Both the position numbers and the translations under genes were made by a program. Below, piece after piece: positions 1,166 to 51,560 of a stretch of 64,000 bases of DNA. This DNA comes from Collinsella tanakaei YIT 12063 (GTDB lineage Bacteria > Actinomycetota > Coriobacteriia > Coriobacteriales > Coriobacteriaceae): NCBI RefSeq assembly GCF_000225705.1, contig NZ_JH126468.1, positions 308,818 to 372,817 on the forward strand, given 5' to 3'. Under the pieces are notes generated by a model. The model was not told where the DNA came from, did no database searches, and saw only the letters and a program-made list of their open reading frames with translations. Position 1 is the first letter of the stretch. Each line of letters starts with the position of its first letter.

Positions 1166-2476
1166 CTATTGGCTCAAAGCAAAGCGCTTGCTATGCATTA
1201 CCGCCCAAAGGGGAACATTAATCAGCCACCCATCGTCTCGATACGGAGACAATGATGTTCGGACAGCACGGTCAATGCAAAACTTTTCGCATGCAACGCG
1301 CAAGCTTTTAGACCGAAGGTTCTCCCCTGCCTTTACTTCAACAGGAATAATGCCGCGCGAACTGGTAAGCGCAAAGTCTATTTCTGCAGATCCTGAATCA
1401 TTAGACCAATAGACCGGCTGCTCTCCCTGGGCAACATACTCCTGCAAAACATATTGCTCGGTCAGCGCTCCCTTAAATTCAGTGAAGACGCGTGACCCAT
1501 CAATCACCGCCGTCTCCGGCAGCCCCGCCATAGCACCCAGCAAACCCAAATCGCAGCAAAAGAGCTTGAACGCAGATAGATCCTCATAGCCCCCAAGCGG
1601 AAGGCGTAACGCGGCGACGCGAGGAACTTTATAAACCACCCCATAATCTTCAAGCCACTGCAGAGCTTCCTCAAAATCACGCGCCCTAGCGCCCGGCCTT
1701 ACCGCTCCGTACACAAACTTCTTGTTCTCATGCGCAAGCTGGCTTGGTATAGAGCGCCACGCCATCCTCATGCGCTCCAACAGCCTAACCGGTGCGTGCT
1801 TGCTAAAGTCCGCATCATACGCTTGAAGGATATCGCCCTGCAGCCGTCGACACTCCGCATAATCGCCCGACGCGACAAACTCCGCCACCACTTCTGGCAT
1901 GCCGCCAATGACCATGTAATCTTTCAGATGGCGTTCAATCACATCCGCTACGCTATCAAGCAATGCCATGTCCCCCGCTTCAAGGGCGTCGGCAAGCACG
2001 TCACCCGCAGCAGCGCGAACAAACTCTTCAAACGTCAGGGGATAAAAGGTCAGCATGTCAACTTTGCCAACCGGATAGCTCTCCCCCTCACGTCGCAAAC
2101 CAAGTCCCATATAAGAGCCTGCTGCGACAACATGGTATTCAGGAGCCTGTTCACAGAAGTACTTTAGAGATGTAAGGCCACGAGGAGCTTCTTGTATTTC
2201 ATCAAAGAAGAGCAGCGTATCCTCAGGGTCTATGCGACGCCCCGTGCGCAGCTCAATTTGAGTGATGATTCTACGAGGATCAAGGTCTTGAGCAAAGAGG
2301 CTCTTATAGCTCTCATCGAGCATGAAATCGATCGTCACCGTATCGGCGAACTGTCGGCGCCCAAACTCCTTTACAAGCCAGGTCTTACCTGTCTGGCGAG
2401 CGCCTTTTACAATAAGAGGCTTACGTCCGGAACGGCCCTTCCACGCAACCAGCTCCGCCATACACGTTCTTTCCAT
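1166..2476 (-). CDS. AAA-family ATPase with DUF4143 domain
   Basis: 436-residue ATP-binding protein of the AAA_14/DUF4143 family, which is abundant and multi-copy in gut bacteria and has no assigned role. Walker A GARQTGKT is at residues 25-32, Walker B-like LLFFDE at 88-93, and a sensor segment VVAAGSYMG follows. The C-terminus has a nuclease-like pattern: Asp367 in SAEIDFAL, then Glu380 and Lys382 in PVEVKAG. This resembles the PD-(D/E)XK core. GGAGGGCTCT directly precedes the ATG. A 33-bp tandem array lies 50-140 bp upstream of the start. A related but broken gene lies at 4906-6232, beyond recQ. The family is clear; the function is unknown. Confidence 0.85.
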   Translation of the reverse strand: MERTCMAELVAWKGRSGRKPLIVKGARQTGKTWLVKEFGRRQFADTVTIDFMLDESYKSLFAQDLDPRRIITQIELRTGRRIDPEDTLLFFDEIQEAPRGLTSLKYFCEQAPEYHVVAAGSYMGLGLRREGESYPVGKVDMLTFYPLTFEEFVRAAAGDVLADALEAGDMALLDSVADVIERHLKDYMVIGGMPEVVAEFVASGDYAECRRLQGDILQAYDADFSKHAPVRLLERMRMAWRSIPSQLAHENKKFVYGAVRPGARARDFEEALQWLEDYGVVYKVPRVAALRLPLGGYEDLSAFKLFCCDLGLLGAMAGLPETAVIDGSRVFTEFKGALTEQYVLQEYVAQGEQPVYWSNDSGSAEIDFALTSSRGIIPVEVKAGENLRSKSLRVACEKFCIDRAVRTSLSPYRDDGWLINVPLWAVMHSKRFALSQ

Positions 2477-2523: not shown

Positions 2524-2615
2524 CTTCCCAAGCAAAATGTGGGAGTCTCGCACAAAGTTCCAAGGAAAAATGTGGTAGTCTCGCACAAAGTTCCAAGGAA
2601 AAATGTGTGAGCACC
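2524..2615. repeat. 33-bp-period tandem array upstream of a DUF4143 ATPase
   Basis: Almost three copies of a 33-bp unit lie between the ATPase start (2476) and the recQ stop (2644). GTCTCGCACAAAGTTCC recurs exactly 33 bp later. Read in the direction of the ATPase gene, each unit carries TGTGCGAGACT. This resembles the GTGCGGAAATC repeat, also at 33-bp spacing, in front of the second ATPase gene at 4906. A helical-phase protein-binding array controlling the ATPase is one reading. Confidence 0.8.
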
Positions 2616-2643
2616 GCGTTCAACTGGACTTTTGCAACAGCGG

Positions 2644-4677
2644 CTAAACCTCACCCAAATGCTGGTCCTCAAACTCCTCGATGTGCTCCAAAAACGCGCG
2701 ACCAAAGTCCGCTGCCTTCTTCTCGCCGATGCCCGGAACATCCAAAAGCTCCTCAAGGCTATGGGGGCGCCGACGGCACATGCCGCGAAGAGCCGCGTCG
2801 CTGCACACCATATAGGGCGCCCAACCCCGCTCGCGTGCAAAATCCGTACGCAGCTCGCGCAGGCTCTCGAACAGCTCGGCGTCATCACCCACGCGAGGCC
2901 GAGCATCCAGGGCGGCTTCCTCGCGCAGCAAATCGACCGCACGGCGGGCGCGGGCAGATCTGGAGCGCTTGCTGGACCTGCGCTTGATAGTGAATTCAAA
3001 CGGCGTCGCAGACGCAGCCCCGTCGCCAGAGCTCTCTCCCAGCACCTCGACCGCACGCGGCCCCAGCGCGATCACGGGATACTGCCCCTGCGATACGGAA
3101 AGGTATCCGCGGCCCGCGAGCTGGTCCACCACATCCTTGATGCGCGCCATCTGGCAGTCTTCCAGCGCGCCGTACCCCGCCGCCTCATCGAGATGGCAGT
3201 TGCGCACCCGCTCGTTGTTGGCGCCGTGCAGGGCATCGGCTATAAGCGTCTTGCCAAACCGACCCGCCCGCGGCGCCACAAACTCCACGATCGCGCGGGC
3301 AACCTGCGTCACGTCCTCCACCTCAAACTCGGTAAGGCAGTTGGAGCATGCGCCGCAACCATCGCTCTTTGCGGACAAGGGCTGGCTGGCACCCAGCTGC
3401 GCGCCCGTCCGCGCATCCGGCAATGCGCCCTCGTCCCCAAAATAGCGGAGCATGTACTCGCGCAAGCACCCGGTAGTCTGGCAGTAGCCCTCCATCTGGC
3501 GCAGAAGACGGTAACGGTTCTGGCAGGCGCGCTCAAGCTGCTCCTGGTCAAGGTCGGGACGCGGCAAGCCGTCCTCGTCCAGCCCCGCCGCATCACGGCT
3601 CTTCTCTATCAAGAACCGGCGCAGTCTGAAATCGTTGCCATTCCACAGCAGATAGCAGCTGGCGGGATCGCCGTCGCGGCCGGCGCGGCCCGCCTCTTGG
3701 TAATACGCCTCGATGCTTTCCGGCACGTTGTTGTGAATCACGTATCGCACGTTGGGCTTGTCGATACCCATGCCAAACGCATTGGTGGCCACCATCACCG
3801 GCACGCGGTCGTCGATAAAGTCCGCCTGGTTTTGCGTTCGTTCATCGTTACCCAAGCCCGCGTGGTAGCGCCCCGCCCGGATACCTTGGGGCATCAACGC
3901 CAGCGACAGTTCCGCGGAAAGCTCGTCCACCGCCTTGCGAGTCGAGCAGTAGATGATGCCGCTCTCCTGGTTATGCTGCGCGACATAGGAGCGTATCCAG
4001 GCAGCCTTCGCCTTATCGCCCAGCTCTTCCACTCCAAAGAACAGATTGGGTCGGTCGAAACCGGTCACCACGGTCTGCGGCGAGCGCAAATCGAGCATAT
4101 GGACAATGTCCTCCCGCACGCGCTCGGTAGCGGTAGCCGTGAAGGCCGCTACCACCGGACGCTGCGGCAGGGCCTCTATGAATGCGGAGATCTGCAGATA
4201 GGATGGGCGAAAATCCTGGCCCCATTGGGAGACGCAGTGGGCCTCGTCCACCGCCACCAGCGGAATGCCGTAACCGCCGGGGGACGCCAGACGTTGCGCG
4301 AACTCCATAAAGCGCGGATCTGCCAAGCGCTCGGGCGCTACGTACATGATCTGGTACCATCCGTCTTCCGCGCGACGCAGTACCGTGTTCTGCTGCGGCA
4401 CGGTAAGGGATGAGTTGAGGTATGAAGGATGCGCGCCCGCCGCCAGCAGCGAACGCACCTGGTCGCCCATGAGCGACACCAGCGGGCTCACCACCAGCGT
4501 GAGTCCCTTCAGCATGAGCGCGGGCACCTGGTAGCAGATGGACTTGCCGGCACCGGTGGGCATGACTCCCAAGGCATCGCGGCCAGACAGGATGGCCTGC
4601 ACCATGCGGTCCTGCCCGGGACGGAAAGATCCATAACCAAAGTAGGTTTTAAGCGTGTCCAACGCCTGGTTATTCAT
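2644..4677 (-). CDS. recQ: ATP-dependent DNA helicase RecQ
   Basis: 677-residue superfamily 2 3'-5' DNA helicase used in recombinational repair and fork processing. Visible features in order: FGYGSFRPGQ near residue 13; motif I TGAGKS at 41-46; motif II DEAH at 144-147 followed by CVSQWG; motif III FTATAT; a helicase C-terminal part with GRAGRDGDP; four cysteines of the RecQ zinc-binding region around GCGACSNC; a winged-helix region; and a C-terminal HRDC domain (residues about 595-670, DVPGIGEKKAADFG). The length fits the E. coli-type enzyme. It sits between two DUF4143 ATPase loci with no obvious operon partner. A 593-residue antisense frame over it is a codon-bias shadow. Confidence 0.97.
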   Translation of the reverse strand: MNNQALDTLKTYFGYGSFRPGQDRMVQAILSGRDALGVMPTGAGKSICYQVPALMLKGLTLVVSPLVSLMGDQVRSLLAAGAHPSYLNSSLTVPQQNTVLRRAEDGWYQIMYVAPERLADPRFMEFAQRLASPGGYGIPLVAVDEAHCVSQWGQDFRPSYLQISAFIEALPQRPVVAAFTATATERVREDIVHMLDLRSPQTVVTGFDRPNLFFGVEELGDKAKAAWIRSYVAQHNQESGIIYCSTRKAVDELSAELSLALMPQGIRAGRYHAGLGNDERTQNQADFIDDRVPVMVATNAFGMGIDKPNVRYVIHNNVPESIEAYYQEAGRAGRDGDPASCYLLWNGNDFRLRRFLIEKSRDAAGLDEDGLPRPDLDQEQLERACQNRYRLLRQMEGYCQTTGCLREYMLRYFGDEGALPDARTGAQLGASQPLSAKSDGCGACSNCLTEFEVEDVTQVARAIVEFVAPRAGRFGKTLIADALHGANNERVRNCHLDEAAGYGALEDCQMARIKDVVDQLAGRGYLSVSQGQYPVIALGPRAVEVLGESSGDGAASATPFEFTIKRRSSKRSRSARARRAVDLLREEAALDARPRVGDDAELFESLRELRTDFARERGWAPYMVCSDAALRGMCRRRPHSLEELLDVPGIGEKKAADFGRAFLEHIEEFEDQHLGEV

Positions 4678-4845
4678 ACGGCCGCCCTCGCATCTCGCAT
4701 GGTCACACCTTGTAGGTCATAGCCTTGTACCCTCACCACGCTAGCAGAGGACGCCATCGACCTCCAGACCGGGTTTTCCTTAGGCTTGTTCCGCACGCTT
4801 GTGCGCCATGGCAACGCCTGCCGCAAGCCTTGGCTCAAGACTCAG

Positions 4846-4892
4846 AAAGTGCGGAAATCGGGTAAATCGCCCAAATAAAAAGTGCGGAAATC
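4846..4892 (+). repeat. Two-copy 33-bp-period repeat upstream of the second DUF4143 ATPase
   Basis: AAAGTGCGGAAATC occurs at 4846-4859 and 4879-4892, exactly 33 bp apart. It ends 13 bp before the ATPase ATG, so the array overlaps the expected promoter or leader. CAAATA at 4872-4877 precedes the second core. The combination CAAATA plus AGTGCGG also defines the intergenic elements at 38565 and 48270. Confidence 0.75.
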
Positions 4893-4905
4893 TGGTTGGA
4901 GGGCT

Positions 4906-6232
4906 ATGTTCACGCGAAAGATATATGAATACCTGCTGGAATGGAAGCGCAGAGATAGCGGCAGAACGGCAGCCCTTATCGAAGGGCCCCGGCGCGTTGG
5001 CAAGTCCGCTGTTGCCAAAGCGTTCGCACAAAACGAGTATCGCACCCACATCCTTGTAGATTTCTCAGCCGCACCCCAATCTGTTGGAGAGCTGTTCGAG
5101 GATGTCTCGGATTTGGACTATCTTTTTTTACAATTGCAGCTGCATTACGGAGTTCAACTCCATAAGCGAGAATCGGCAATTATCTTTGACGAGGTGCAGC
5201 TCTGCCCAAAGGCGCGGCAAGCAATCAAACATCTAGTCGCAGACGGTCGCTATGACCATATAGAGACCGGCTCGCTCATATCGATTAGAAGGAACGTCCA
5301 AGGAATTGTTATTCCCAGCGAAGAATATAAGCTTCAGATGCGGCCCATGGATTTTGAAGAGTTCAAATGGGCGCTTGGCGATACGGGCACAATCCCTCTA
5401 CTGAAGAAAACTTTTGAAGAGAGGCGTCCGCTTGGCGACCAGCTCAATCGCAAGCTCATGAGGGACTTCCGTCTTTACATGCTAGTTGGCGGTACGCCTC
5501 AAGCCGTCAGCTCATATATAGAAACCAACAACCTCCAGGCAGTCGATACCGTTAAACGCGGCATCATCTCGCTTTACGAAGACGACTTTCATAAGATCAG
5601 CCCGTCCGGAGCGCTATCCCTTCTCTTTGACGCCATTCCAGCGCAACTCTCCAAAAGGCATCTCGGTACCAGGTTTCAGCAGTGCTGGCCAATCGCCAGG
5701 CATCCGACGTACTTGAGGAGATATCAGAACTAAAGGAGTCTAAGACAACGCTTGTTGCCTATCACGCAAACGATCCCAATGTGGGAATGTCTTCAAGCAT
5801 AAATCTCGAGAAATTTAAACTATACCTTGCTGATACGGGACTGTTTGTAACCCTTATGTTCAAAGACAGGGATTTTACCGATAACACCGTGTACCAAGCA
5901 TTGCTTTCTGACAAGCTGCCGGCAAATCTCGGCTCGGTTTACGAAAACGTCGTTGCGCAGGAGCTGGTCGCACAAGGACACAGGCTGTTTTATCACACCT
6001 GGCCAAAAAGGGCGCAAACCGCAACTACGAGATTGACTTTGTTGTAAGCGACGGTAAAAAGATCTCTCCCGTTGAGGTCAAGTCCTCGGGATACAAAACC
6101 CATGTCTCACTTGATGCGTTTGGCGAGAAATATGCATCCAGGATTGGGCGACGCTTCCTGGCGTATACAAAAGACCTTCGACAAGACGGTGACGTCACCT
6201 GCATGCCAACATATATGGCGCGCTTTCTGTAA
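4906..6232 (+). pseudogene. DUF4143 AAA ATPase interrupted by two frameshifts
   Basis: The ATG at 4906 follows TTGGAGGG. Frame 1 gives GPRRVGKS (Walker A), IIFDEVQL (Walker B) and ETGSLISI. At the A-run 5653-5656 the homologous reading moves one frame back and continues as KKASRYQVSAV to about 6004. At the A-run 6005-6009 it moves again and ends as NYEIDFVV, PVEVKSSGYKTH and a TAA at 6232. Restoring one A in each run gives one protein of about 443 residues with all family motifs. Either the gene is inactivated, or the sequence has homopolymer errors, or slippage on the A-runs restores the product. Each shift is compatible in direction with -1 slippage. It belongs to the same family as 1166-2476. 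Confidence 0.85.
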
Positions 6233-32497: not shown

Positions 32498-32575
32498 CGC
32501 CCCTTCCCGCAAGCGCCCCTTCCCGCAAGCACCCCTTCCCGCAAGCACCCCCTCCCGCAAACACCCACTTCCCTT
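32498..32575. repeat. 16-bp tandem repeat between larA and larD
   Basis: About 4.8 copies of CGCCCCTTCCCGCAAG (with CA for CG in later copies) start 26 bp after the larA stop. Later copies degrade. Pyrimidine-rich on the plus strand. Function unknown; it may simply be slippage-prone DNA. Confidence 0.85.
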
Positions 32576-38564: not shown

Positions 38565-38841
38565 CAAATAATGCGTTAGTGCGGAATCCGGGTGTGCCAA
38601 ATAATCGCTTAGTGCGGAGGTTGGGACAAATAGTTAGTTAGTGCGGTTCCCAGAGTGACAAATAGTGCGTTAGTGCGGTACGGATGAGGTGTACGAGGGT
38701 ACCTTATGAATAGGGAGTTCGCATCATCCGAGATAGATGGCTTGGACGAGTACGCCCGATGCATAAGAAATGCCCGCTGAACCTTCTCCAGACCGCACTA
38801 ACGCACTATTTGACCAAACCTCCGCACTAACACGTTATTTG
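38565..38841. repeat. Repeat-flanked intergenic element, copy 1
   Basis: Left arm: four direct copies of CAAATA-N7/8-TTAGTGCGG-like repeats starting at 38565, 38598, 38627 and 38659 (33, 29 and 32 bp apart). Right arm: two copies in reverse orientation, CCGCACTAAC..TATTTG, at 38793-38812 and 38822-38841. The centre 38697-38780 contains AGGGTACCTTATGAATAGGG-like sequence and GGCTTGGACGA that is shared, in reverse, with the element at 48270-48560. It is located between lysR and the end of the his operon. Not a CRISPR: the repeats are degenerate and the intervals are only 10-15 bases. Confidence 0.85.
38706..38780 (+). CDS. Conserved micro-ORF inside the repeat element, copy 1
   Basis: 24 codons plus TGA. 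It begins MNREFASSEIDGLDE, has one Cys near position 19 and ends NAR. AGGG lies 7 bases before the ATG. The counterpart at 48440-48345 begins MNRVFASPKLEGLDD and stays in the same frame without indels over these 24 residues. About 12 are identical and several are conservative (I/L, D/E, E/D, I/M). After the early TGA the frame would go on to a TAA formed by the flanking repeat, as in the second copy. Could be a real peptide, a leader, or the start of a lost gene. Confidence 0.45.
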   Translation: MNREFASSEIDGLDEYARCIRNAR

Positions 38842-38955
38842 ACACAGCGCGGGAACGCCCTCGCCGCTCGCCCGCCCGCCGCCCGCCGCTCGCCGCTCGC
38901 CCGCTCCACAGGAACGCGCTACCGGCCCCAATAGGTGCAGCAGGGCGCCGTCGCC

Positions 38956-39273
38956 CTACTTCATGCGAGCGTTCAGCTCTCCCGCCAGCTCGTCGATGGT
39001 AACGCCGTAGCGCTCAAGAACCACCAGAAGATGGTAGACCAGGTCGCCCGCCTCGTAACGAATGTGATCGCGGTCGTTGTCCTTGCAGGCCATGACAACT
39101 TCGCCCGCCTCCTCTATTACCTTTTTCAGAAGGCTGTCCTCCTCGCCCTGCAGCAGCTTGGCGGTATAGCTGGCCTCGGGCGAAGCCTCGCGGCGACCAT
39201 GTATTGTCGCGGCCAGGCCCTCCATGGTCTGCCCTATGTTTCCGTCTTGTACGTTAGCCGTGCGCACTCCCAT
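38956..39273 (-). CDS. hisE: Phosphoribosyl-ATP pyrophosphohydrolase
   Basis: 105 residues; second step of histidine synthesis. MazG-like fold with SYTAKLLQGEEDSLLKKVIEEAGEVVMA, then DRDHIRYEAGDLVYHLLVVLERYGV. Free-standing, not fused to HisI. Last gene of the his operon, GGGAGGAGCCGGC before the ATG. The N-terminal 20 residues are longer than usual. Confidence 0.95.
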   Translation of the reverse strand: MGVRTANVQDGNIGQTMEGLAATIHGRREASPEASYTAKLLQGEEDSLLKKVIEEAGEVVMACKDNDRDHIRYEAGDLVYHLLVVLERYGVTIDELAGELNARMK

Positions 39274-39324
39274 GCCGGCTCCTCCCTCTTCATCACCATG
39301 CGTCGCCGCCGCAATCGCGCCGCG

Positions 39325-39651
39325 CTAATCCTCGTTATCAAACGTCCTAAAAAAGCAGGTGCGGTTGCCGGTATGGCACGCAGGACCAGGCGAGTCGACG
39401 CGCGCCAACAGGGTGTCGGCGTCGCAATCCACCAACAGCTCGCGCAGCTGCTGCATGTTGCCGCTGGTAGCACCCTTGTTCCACAGCTCTTGGCGAGAGC
39501 GGCTCCAAAACCATGTGGTCCCGGTCTCAAGCGTAAGCGCCACGGATTCAGCATTCATCCAGGCGACCATAAGAACCTCGCCCGTATCATATTGCTGAAC
39601 CACGCACGGGATCAGCCCTTGCGCGTCAAACTTCAAATCCTCGACCTTCAT
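39325..39651 (-). CDS. hisI: Phosphoribosyl-AMP cyclohydrolase
   Basis: 108 residues from the ATG at 39651 (GAGAAAGGAGACGAC). Third step of histidine synthesis. Seen: [40 protein letters not shown]; and the zinc ligands in [23 protein letters not shown]. Separate from HisE, which follows 51 bp downstream. A 124-bp gap separates it from hisF. Confidence 0.96.
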
Positions 39652-39775
39652 GTCGTCTCCTTTCTCTCGCGCGATACGCACCCCCGAATGCCGCACGCCC
39701 CGGCGAGCACCGCGCGCACGGCAGGCATCACGCACCGCCCTAACGCATGCCGCGCACGACCAGCGCCCCCGCACG

Positions 39776-40558
39776 TTAGAAATCCAGCCGAACGGGGATT
39801 CCCTGGGCAGCCATGTACTCCTTGACCTGGCGAATGCTAAATGTGCCAAAGTGAAATACGCTCGCAGCCAGCACCGCGTCCGCCTCACCCTCGATAATGC
39901 CCTGGGCAAAGTGCTCAAGCTCGCCCACGCCGCCCGACGCGATCACGGGAACGGGCACGGCGCGCGCAACCGCGCGGGTTAGCGCCAGATCAAAGCCCGC
40001 CTTGGTACCGTCGCGGTCCATGCTGGTCAGCAAGATCTCGCCCGCGCCGCGGCGCGCCGCCTCGCAGGCCCACTCCACCGCGTCAAGCCCCGTGGGTGTA
40101 CGACCGCCCGCTACGTAAACCTCCCATTTGTCGGCCCCGGGACGTCCCGGCTCCCCCACGTGCTTGGCGTCGATGGCGCAGATAACCGCCTGGCTGCCAA
40201 ACGCCGCCGCGCCTTGGGTGATGAGCTGGGGATTTTTCACCGCCGCCGAATTGAGCGACACCTTGTCCGCGCCGGCAGCCACCATGCGCCGCATGCCCGC
40301 GAGGTCCCTAAAACCGCCGCCCACCGTGTAGGGAATGGCGAGTTCGCCCGCCGCACGCGACGCCATATCGATGGTGGTCGAGCGGTTGTCGCTAGTCGCG
40401 GTGATATCCAAAAAGATGACCTCGTCCGCACCCTCGCGATCATACGCGCTCGCAAGCTCAACGGGGTCGCCCGCATCGCGCAGCGATAGGAAGTTGATGC
40501 CCTTTACCACGCGCCCGTCTTTAACATCCAGGCACGGAATCACGCGCTTGGTCAGCAT
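39776..40558 (-). CDS. hisF: Imidazole glycerol phosphate synthase subunit HisF
   Basis: 260 residues from the ATG at 40558, which overlaps the hisA stop; a GTG two codons upstream is possible. TIM barrel cyclase: [22 protein letters not shown] with the first catalytic Asp, [42 protein letters not shown] with the second catalytic Asp, and [13 protein letters not shown]. Works with HisH. Confidence 0.97.
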
Positions 40559-48269: not shown

Positions 48270-48560
48270 CCAAAAACCGACTTAGTGCGGAAAGGGAAGA
48301 GTGTCAAAAAACGCGTTAGTGCGGAGGTTTGGTCAAATAGTACGTTAGTGCGGTTCGAAGGTCGCCCGACGCAACTTCCGCATGCATCCGCCCATATCGT
48401 CCAAGCCTTCTAGCTTTGGCGATGCGAATACCCTATTCATAAGGTACCCTGCCTATCGCCCTTCCTCTCCGCACTAACGCATTGTTTGACACGCCAGAGA
48501 CCGCACTAAGCCACTATTTGTCCAAACCTCCGCACTAAGCGATTATTTGGCACGCCCGAT
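48270..48560. repeat. Repeat-flanked intergenic element, copy 2 (reverse of copy 1)
   Basis: Left arm: three copies of CAAAnA..TTAGTGCGG at 48270-48290, 48304-48324 and 48333-48353. Right arm: CCGCACTAA..TNTTTG at about 48469-48488, 48501-48520 and 48530-48550. The centre, read on the minus strand, has AGGGTACCTTATGAATAGGG (48432-48451), then TTCGCATC and GGCTTGGACGA at the same spacing as in copy 1. The element lies between DUF4867 and the Gx transporter gene. Together the two copies bracket about 9.4 kb holding DUF4867 and the whole his operon, in inverted orientation. Confidence 0.85.
48345..48440 (-). CDS. Conserved micro-ORF inside the repeat element, copy 2
   Basis: 31 codons plus TAA; begins MNRVFASPKLEGLDD and ends TFEPH. 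AGGG is 7 bases before the ATG. The TAA stop is part of the first flanking CCGCACTAA repeat. The frame matches the micro-ORF at 38706, including the TTC...CCG CAC TAA end if that copy's earlier TGA is ignored. It is either a genuine peptide or conserved DNA that happens to be open. Confidence 0.45.
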   Translation of the reverse strand: MNRVFASPKLEGLDDMGGCMRKLRRATFEPH

Positions 48561-51403: not shown

Positions 51404-51417
51404 GGCCTCGCATATGT

Positions 51418-51551
51418 TTCAGGGCGGGGCGAAATTCCCCACCGGCGGTAAATGGATGCGAAACGTGCGTCCACAAGCCCGCGAGCCGCGCAAGCGGTTG
51501 ATCCGGTGCGAATCCGGGGCCGACGGTATAGTCCGGATGAGAGAAACGAGG
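51418..51551 (+). promoter_or_regulatory. FMN riboswitch (RFN element)
   Basis: All conserved RFN blocks are in order: AGGGCGGGGCGAAATTCCCC, ACCGGCGGTAAAT, AGCCCGCGAGC, TGATCCGGTGCGAATCCGG, GGCCGACGGTATAGTCCGGA and TGAGAGAAACGAGG. The ribU ATG at 51561 is about 10 bases after the last block and no separate terminator is visible. Control is therefore probably at translation initiation by hiding the ribosome site when FMN binds. Confidence 0.96.
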
Positions 51552-51560
51552 TCTCCTATT

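Follow-up and report, generated by a model that had tools for sequence, protein, structure and literature searches.

Results

Two DUF4143 ATPase genes preceded by direct repeats

The window analysed here, a stretch of 64,000 nucleotides from Collinsella tanakaei YIT 12063 (contig NZ_JH126468.1, positions 308,818 to 372,817), carries two genes encoding ATPases of the DUF4143 family, each with direct repeats at its 5' side, as well as two copies of a dispersed palindromic element:

1166..2476, minus strand: DUF4143 ATPase gene 1, intact, AAA_14 and DUF4143 domains (Pfam, PADLOC PDC-S01, AlphaFold2 model)
2534..2611, minus strand: array 1, 33-bp direct repeats 5' of gene 1 (TRF; repeat score)
4848..4895, plus strand: array 2, two repeat copies 5' of gene 2 (repeat score)
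4906..6232, plus strand: DUF4143 ATPase gene 2, frameshifted, pieces in three frames (Pfam, reading of the sequence)
38565..38842, no strand assigned: dispersed palindromic element, inverted CAAATA-N5-TTAGTGCGG arrays around a core
48270..48551, no strand assigned: second copy of this element, with the same inverted CAAATA-N5-TTAGTGCGG arrays around a core

Gene 1 exceeds the curated Pfam cut-offs for both AAA_14 (E-value 5.3e-23; 81.9 bits vs 27) and DUF4143 (8.9e-34; 117 bits vs 28.1), and is matched over its full length by the PADLOC phage defence candidate PDC-S01 (AAA_14-DUF4143; 1.1e-169), of which it is a full-length member. In gene 2, AAA_14 (2.8e-19) is found in the ORF 4882-5733, which shares its frame with 4906-5733, part of DUF4143 (2.3e-10) lies in a different frame at 5682-6047, and an EVK motif can be read from the sequence near 6074 in the third frame. 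The nearest kin of gene 2, in genome G017, is 69% identical over residues 17-290.

Array 1 (TRF: period 33, 2.4 copies, 93% matches) is located at about -135 to -57 relative to the start of gene 1, between this start and an ORF of 677 aa (2644-4677, minus strand) which we take to be RecQ-like. Gene 2 and array 2 lie on the far side of this ORF from gene 1; here, AGTGCGGAAATC occurs at 4848 and 4881, i.e. at a spacing of exactly 33 bp, and the array ends about 11 bp before the ATG at 4906. Both copies in array 2 are intact, although gene 2 is broken by frameshifts.

Repeats were quantified by a direct-repeat score (match +1, mismatch -2, best ungapped offset between 15 and 50), which for the region from -200 to +20 of the start is 38 for gene 1 and 15 for gene 2, with an offset of 33 in both cases. 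Only 3 of the 51 non-overlapping ORFs of at least 150 aa in the window score 15 or more, namely both DUF4143 genes and the ORF 38934-39825, whose upstream region contains one arm of the dispersed element. The arrays with a 33-bp period which the sequence-only reading had placed before both ATPase genes are thus borne out by TRF, by the exact 33-bp copies and by the scores. An Rfam scan of the window yielded no match at either array; it detected an FMN riboswitch at 51411-51552 (110.2 bits) and three tRNAs. Elsewhere in the window, at 32500-32573, there is a tandem array with a 16-bp unit (4.6 copies, 91% matches).

A common code for arrays and dispersed elements is not upheld

The same reading had linked the two arrays and the dispersed elements to each other by shared motif sequences. 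GTGCGRRANT is indeed present in both arrays, with four of its five occurrences in the window being array copies. The pairing of CAAATA with a following AGTGCGG, said to link array 2 to the dispersed elements, exists in one copy, albeit with a gap of 3 bases as compared to 7 in the elements. Beyond that, similarity is weak in all comparisons. Array 1 vs array 2 gives a score of 10, which 11 of 500 shuffles equal or exceed for a motif that was chosen post hoc; array 2 vs the dispersed element gives 12.5 (25 of 2000 shuffles as good), while unrelated DUF4143 upstream regions reach 16, a comparison that favours those regions, since they and the controls span 135 bp against 61 bp for array 2. Further evidence against a common code comes from paralogues within one genome, whose arrays score 9.1 on average compared to 8.2 for shuffles (85 pairs, 7 genomes); the top scores of 20 and 22 belong to proteins that are 51 and 58% identical. 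A code common to all of them, whether GTGCGRRANT or the CAAATA/AGTGCGG pair, was therefore rejected, and so was kinship between the dispersed element and the ATPase arrays. Given its weak likeness to array 2, we treat the dispersed element as a separate feature.

The pattern CAAATA-N3-9-TTAGTGCGG has 89 matches in the genome of the window (none for a reversed control pattern), which we grouped into 26 sites, 24 of them intergenic by simple ORF calls. The distance between the innermost repeats is 123-127 bp in 23 of the 25 two-armed sites, and exactly 124 bp in 18. The sites follow no orientation rule (+- 10, -+ 7, ++ 5, -- 4), and RNAalifold, applied to 24 cores, predicts pairing of the innermost repeats only. 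Within this genome the copies are just 75-83% identical over most of their length. The element was not detected by blastn in the 41 other genomes of the genus, nor as a pattern in 42 others; across 297 genomes of the order the pattern has one lone further match.

Direct repeats usually precede DUF4143 ATPase genes

The genome of the window has nine DUF4143 matches, and their upstream sequences suggest that most of these genes are preceded by a repeat of their own. Within the genus, the family occurs in 39 of 42 genomes with up to 12 copies each among the matches listed. For genus genes hand-picked from the best matches listed, hence no random sample, and including the own genome, 52 of 97 score at least 14, compared to 0 of 115 neighbouring genes. 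For a set spanning several phyla we used the best 80 of at least 573 relatives, which represent one subfamily. Here, 62 of 79 loci (locus L167 left out) score at least 10 vs 20 of 186 neighbours, with an offset of 32 or 33 in 61 of the 62. By record title, these genes belong to Actinomycetota, Bacillota, Bacteroidota, Chlorobiota, Pseudomonadota, Spirochaetota, Verrucomicrobiota, Lentisphaerota, Cyanobacteriota and Chloroflexota.

A whole-family search in sixteen of the cross-phylum genomes added 70 loci. The pooled set comprises 232 distinct genes with starts refined by a profile HMM, left from 252 full-length proteins after removal of 17 duplicate upstream regions, one upstream region that was too short, one protein without a start and one not reaching the N-terminus. 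A direct repeat scoring at least 10 within 200 bp of the start is present in 167 of the 232 genes (72%), compared to 31 of 333 neighbouring genes (9%) and 26 of 1160 dinucleotide shuffles of the family upstream regions (2%); at a score of at least 14 the numbers are 119, 7 and 0, respectively. The 333 controls include gene 2 of the window as well as the ORF beside another family array (locus L104), which biases the comparison against our claim. Repeats of at least 10 occur in every source (own genome 5/7, genus 67/87, cross-phylum loci 63/84, sixteen genomes 32/54), and when the 110 clusters at 60% identity are each represented by one random member, 74 reach this score on average. The remaining 65 genes score below 10. 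No spacing class was assigned to 73 genes; of these, 37 carry an inverted repeat scoring at least 10 (controls 35/333, shuffles 5/232), leaving 36 of the 232 with neither. Periodic arrays are hence found upstream of homologues and are rare before unrelated neighbours, the two points on which the earlier reading could be checked, and the arrays of the window are examples of a family-wide rule. With a query from one subfamily, tblastn matched 59 of 72,556 plasmid records and 13 of 50,697 phage records; the corresponding DNA had no blastn match in E. coli genomes.

The repeats are positioned in front of the genes, with the median 3' end of the array at -43 relative to the start codon. Scores of at least 10 occur in 3 of 232 mid-coding regions, 24 of 228 downstream regions (18 of the 24 at other offsets) and 26 of 224 regions further upstream; 14 of the 228 downstream regions reach 14, mostly again at other offsets. 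Ends of transposons or insertion sequences were considered and rejected, as repeats occur in 24/228 regions downstream vs 167/232 upstream. Sigma-70-like sites were detected in the upstream regions of 68 of 159 arrays (49 expected), and 51 of these 68 sites overlap the array (53% expected), which is no more than suggestive of an overlap between promoter and array. Near the two window genes the promoter scan returned no sigma-70-like site.

Spacing follows the protein tree and repeat sequence follows the protein

Offsets of the 167 arrays amount to 32-34 bp in 119, to 22-23 or 46 bp in 40 and to other values in 8, so that 159 of the 167 fall into two spacing classes. On a protein tree built with FastTree the class changes only twice, whereas 200 label shuffles require 35.4 changes on average and at least 31. 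No cluster with at least two calls mixes the classes, neither at 60% (22 clusters) nor at 40% identity (8 clusters). The spacing class goes with the clade to which the protein belongs. In the 84 arrays whose match is shorter than the period, identity between copies is 94% in the cores (median length 19 bp) and 28% in the spacers; the length of the spacer is conserved, its sequence is not.

When pairs with both members in the genus are left out (at most 250 sampled per identity bin), array similarity rises from 7.7 to 9.5 and 13.3 at 25-35, 50-60 and 60-75% protein identity, respectively, as compared to 6.6, 6.6 and 6.7 for flanks and 7.0, 7.1 and 7.5 for shuffled arrays. Above 75% identity the flanks become similar, too. 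The repeat sequence tracks protein similarity, with the flanks staying at background level as long as identity does not exceed 75%.

The largest cluster (102 genes) has a recurrent half-site, AAAARTGB, with a same-strand spacing of 32-33 bp in 74 of 92 cases. Its direction is forward in 35 genes and reversed in 4, including gene 1 of the window, and it occurs on both strands in 9, in 8 of which opposite half-sites are 16-17 bp apart; the other 54 genes contain too few matches for an orientation to be assigned. Half-sites that are flipped or present on both strands behave like DNA sites and not like RNA repeats.

The modelled fold of the ATPase resembles STAND and ORC-type proteins

The AlphaFold2 model of gene 1 (pLDDT 92.6, pTM 0.91) is predicted to comprise an AAA domain (about residues 1-147), a helical lid (148-205), a winged-helix-like region (206-308) and a C-terminal domain, with limits set by our reading of the secondary structure. 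Among 41 aligned rows, the invariant residues include G25, G30, K31, D92, E93, E340, E380 and K382, while D367 is nearly invariant. E380 and K382 make up an E-x-K motif of the kind seen in PD-(D/E)XK nucleases, and PDC-S01 has been described as a fusion of an ATPase with a PD-(D/E)XK-type domain (PMC12988326). Structure comparison of residues 1-318 retrieves 2qen (Z = 16.6), 2fna (15.8), CED-4 (14.4), plant NLRs (14.3), Avs5 (11.4) and Orc2 (11.0). The likeness to STAND ATPases and ORC/Cdc6 concerns the fold of this segment only, at an identity of 6-15%, and the C-terminal domain stays outside most alignments. A sequence search of the PDB returned no chain named DUF4143, the best match being 2fna (7.6e-08). 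In a regression comparing the protein domains, the rank coefficients are 0.25 for AAA, 0.18 for the winged helix, 0.03 for the lid and -0.10 for the nuclease domain; the winged helix is thus not singled out as specificity determinant.

Discussion

The association between array and gene is upheld, and we infer that the ATPase itself is the best candidate for the reader of the array. Such a reader has to be gene-specific, to travel with the gene across phyla and to impose a geometry that is fixed within a clade, which at these loci only the ATPase does; a repeat sequence particular to the gene, combined with a spacing particular to the branch, likewise suggests that the gene recognised by each protein is its own. 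Judged from these sequence patterns, we consider it probable (roughly 0.6) that the arrays serve as gene-specific operators, each recognised by the ATPase whose gene follows directly, i.e. that the genes are autoregulated. The winged helix of this STAND-like AAA+ protein would bind the repeats, and the subunits would be aligned along the array at a clade-specific step of 22-23 or 32-33 bp. Bound subunits could then lie over the promoter or next to it and keep expression of the gene low, until infection removes the protein from the array or alters its nucleotide state; release would result in higher expression of the nuclease-type effector. The defence role of the ATPase is a further step that we infer beyond operator reading.

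It is unlikely, though the most serious of the alternatives, that the ATPase binds the array mainly as an address, be it an assembly platform or a tag by which the nuclease recognises self, and not for transcription control. All evidence for the ATPase as reader fits this equally well, and the fold is similar to that of ORC/Cdc6 and of STAND proteins that assemble; what speaks for autoregulation is that the arrays sit in the promoter region and not downstream of or within the genes.

Somewhat less probable is a separate regulator comparable to RptR of E. coli, which is reported to repress a defence island by binding a series of three direct repeats in its promoter (PMC12255303). This case shows that defence genes can be under the control of repeat operators, in that instance via a separate repressor. 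As described in that source, RptR is a small regulator distinct from the genes it controls, whose repeats measure 9 bp and whose single site is TAGCTA, whereas the DUF4143 arrays have longer sites that differ from gene to gene, with no conserved regulator gene nearby: among 259 ORFs at the 80 cross-phylum loci, the best neighbour family recurs in 3 loci. Moreover, the many differing arrays per genome would require equally many regulators encoded elsewhere, and the spacing class follows the tree of the ATPase.

In type III toxin-antitoxin systems, a repeat antitoxin acts as RNA. Repeats directly upstream of a likely toxic gene recall this arrangement; an RNA role is nevertheless very improbable here, considering the variable orientation of the half-sites (reversed in 4 genes, present on both strands in 9), the unconserved spacers and, in the window, the lack of a terminator-like site separating the array from the gene. 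Functionless tandem duplication, or chance, hardly deserves consideration: 67 arrays do repeat across the full period, as expected of recent duplication, but neither shuffles nor neighbours reproduce the frequency of arrays, 84 arrays hold their spacing with diverged spacers, and the spacing follows the protein tree.

The autoregulated operators proposed here may be part of something broader. Before genes of the Arch_ATPase/DUF234 family (PF03008), a repeat of at least 8 at 15 or 30 bp, a threshold chosen post hoc, precedes 6 of 12 genes vs 12 of 333 controls (loci L321-L336, with 4 of 16 matches dropped for doubtful starts). These arrays differ from the DUF4143 arrays in spacing and, the sample being small, give no more than a hint that the array principle may extend beyond the DUF4143 family. 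More tentatively, and at somewhat less than even odds, we envisage a superfamily of NLR-like ATPase-nucleases that are self-marked by private arrays, with the step of the array reflecting the subunit spacing of an ATPase filament formed at the promoter, so that orthogonal genes could coexist and fire once this filament is disturbed. The steps would then count 22-23 or 32-33 bp in the DUF4143 family and about 15 bp in the DUF234 family.

PDC-S01 is reported to be the fourth most common defence system across prokaryotes, and the same source describes validation as pending for most PDCs (PMC12988326). A literature search covering mostly open-access papers, without preprints, returned neither a description of such arrays nor an account of PDC-S01 control. 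For this family of very common candidate bacterial defence proteins, the arrays predict sequence-specific DNA binding by the DUF4143 ATPases; they provide predicted DNA ligands for many proteins, with a spacing rule that is open to test, and a set of candidate orthogonal protein-operator pairs. If the reading as private arrays is true, many self-addressed defence genes could coexist in one cell.
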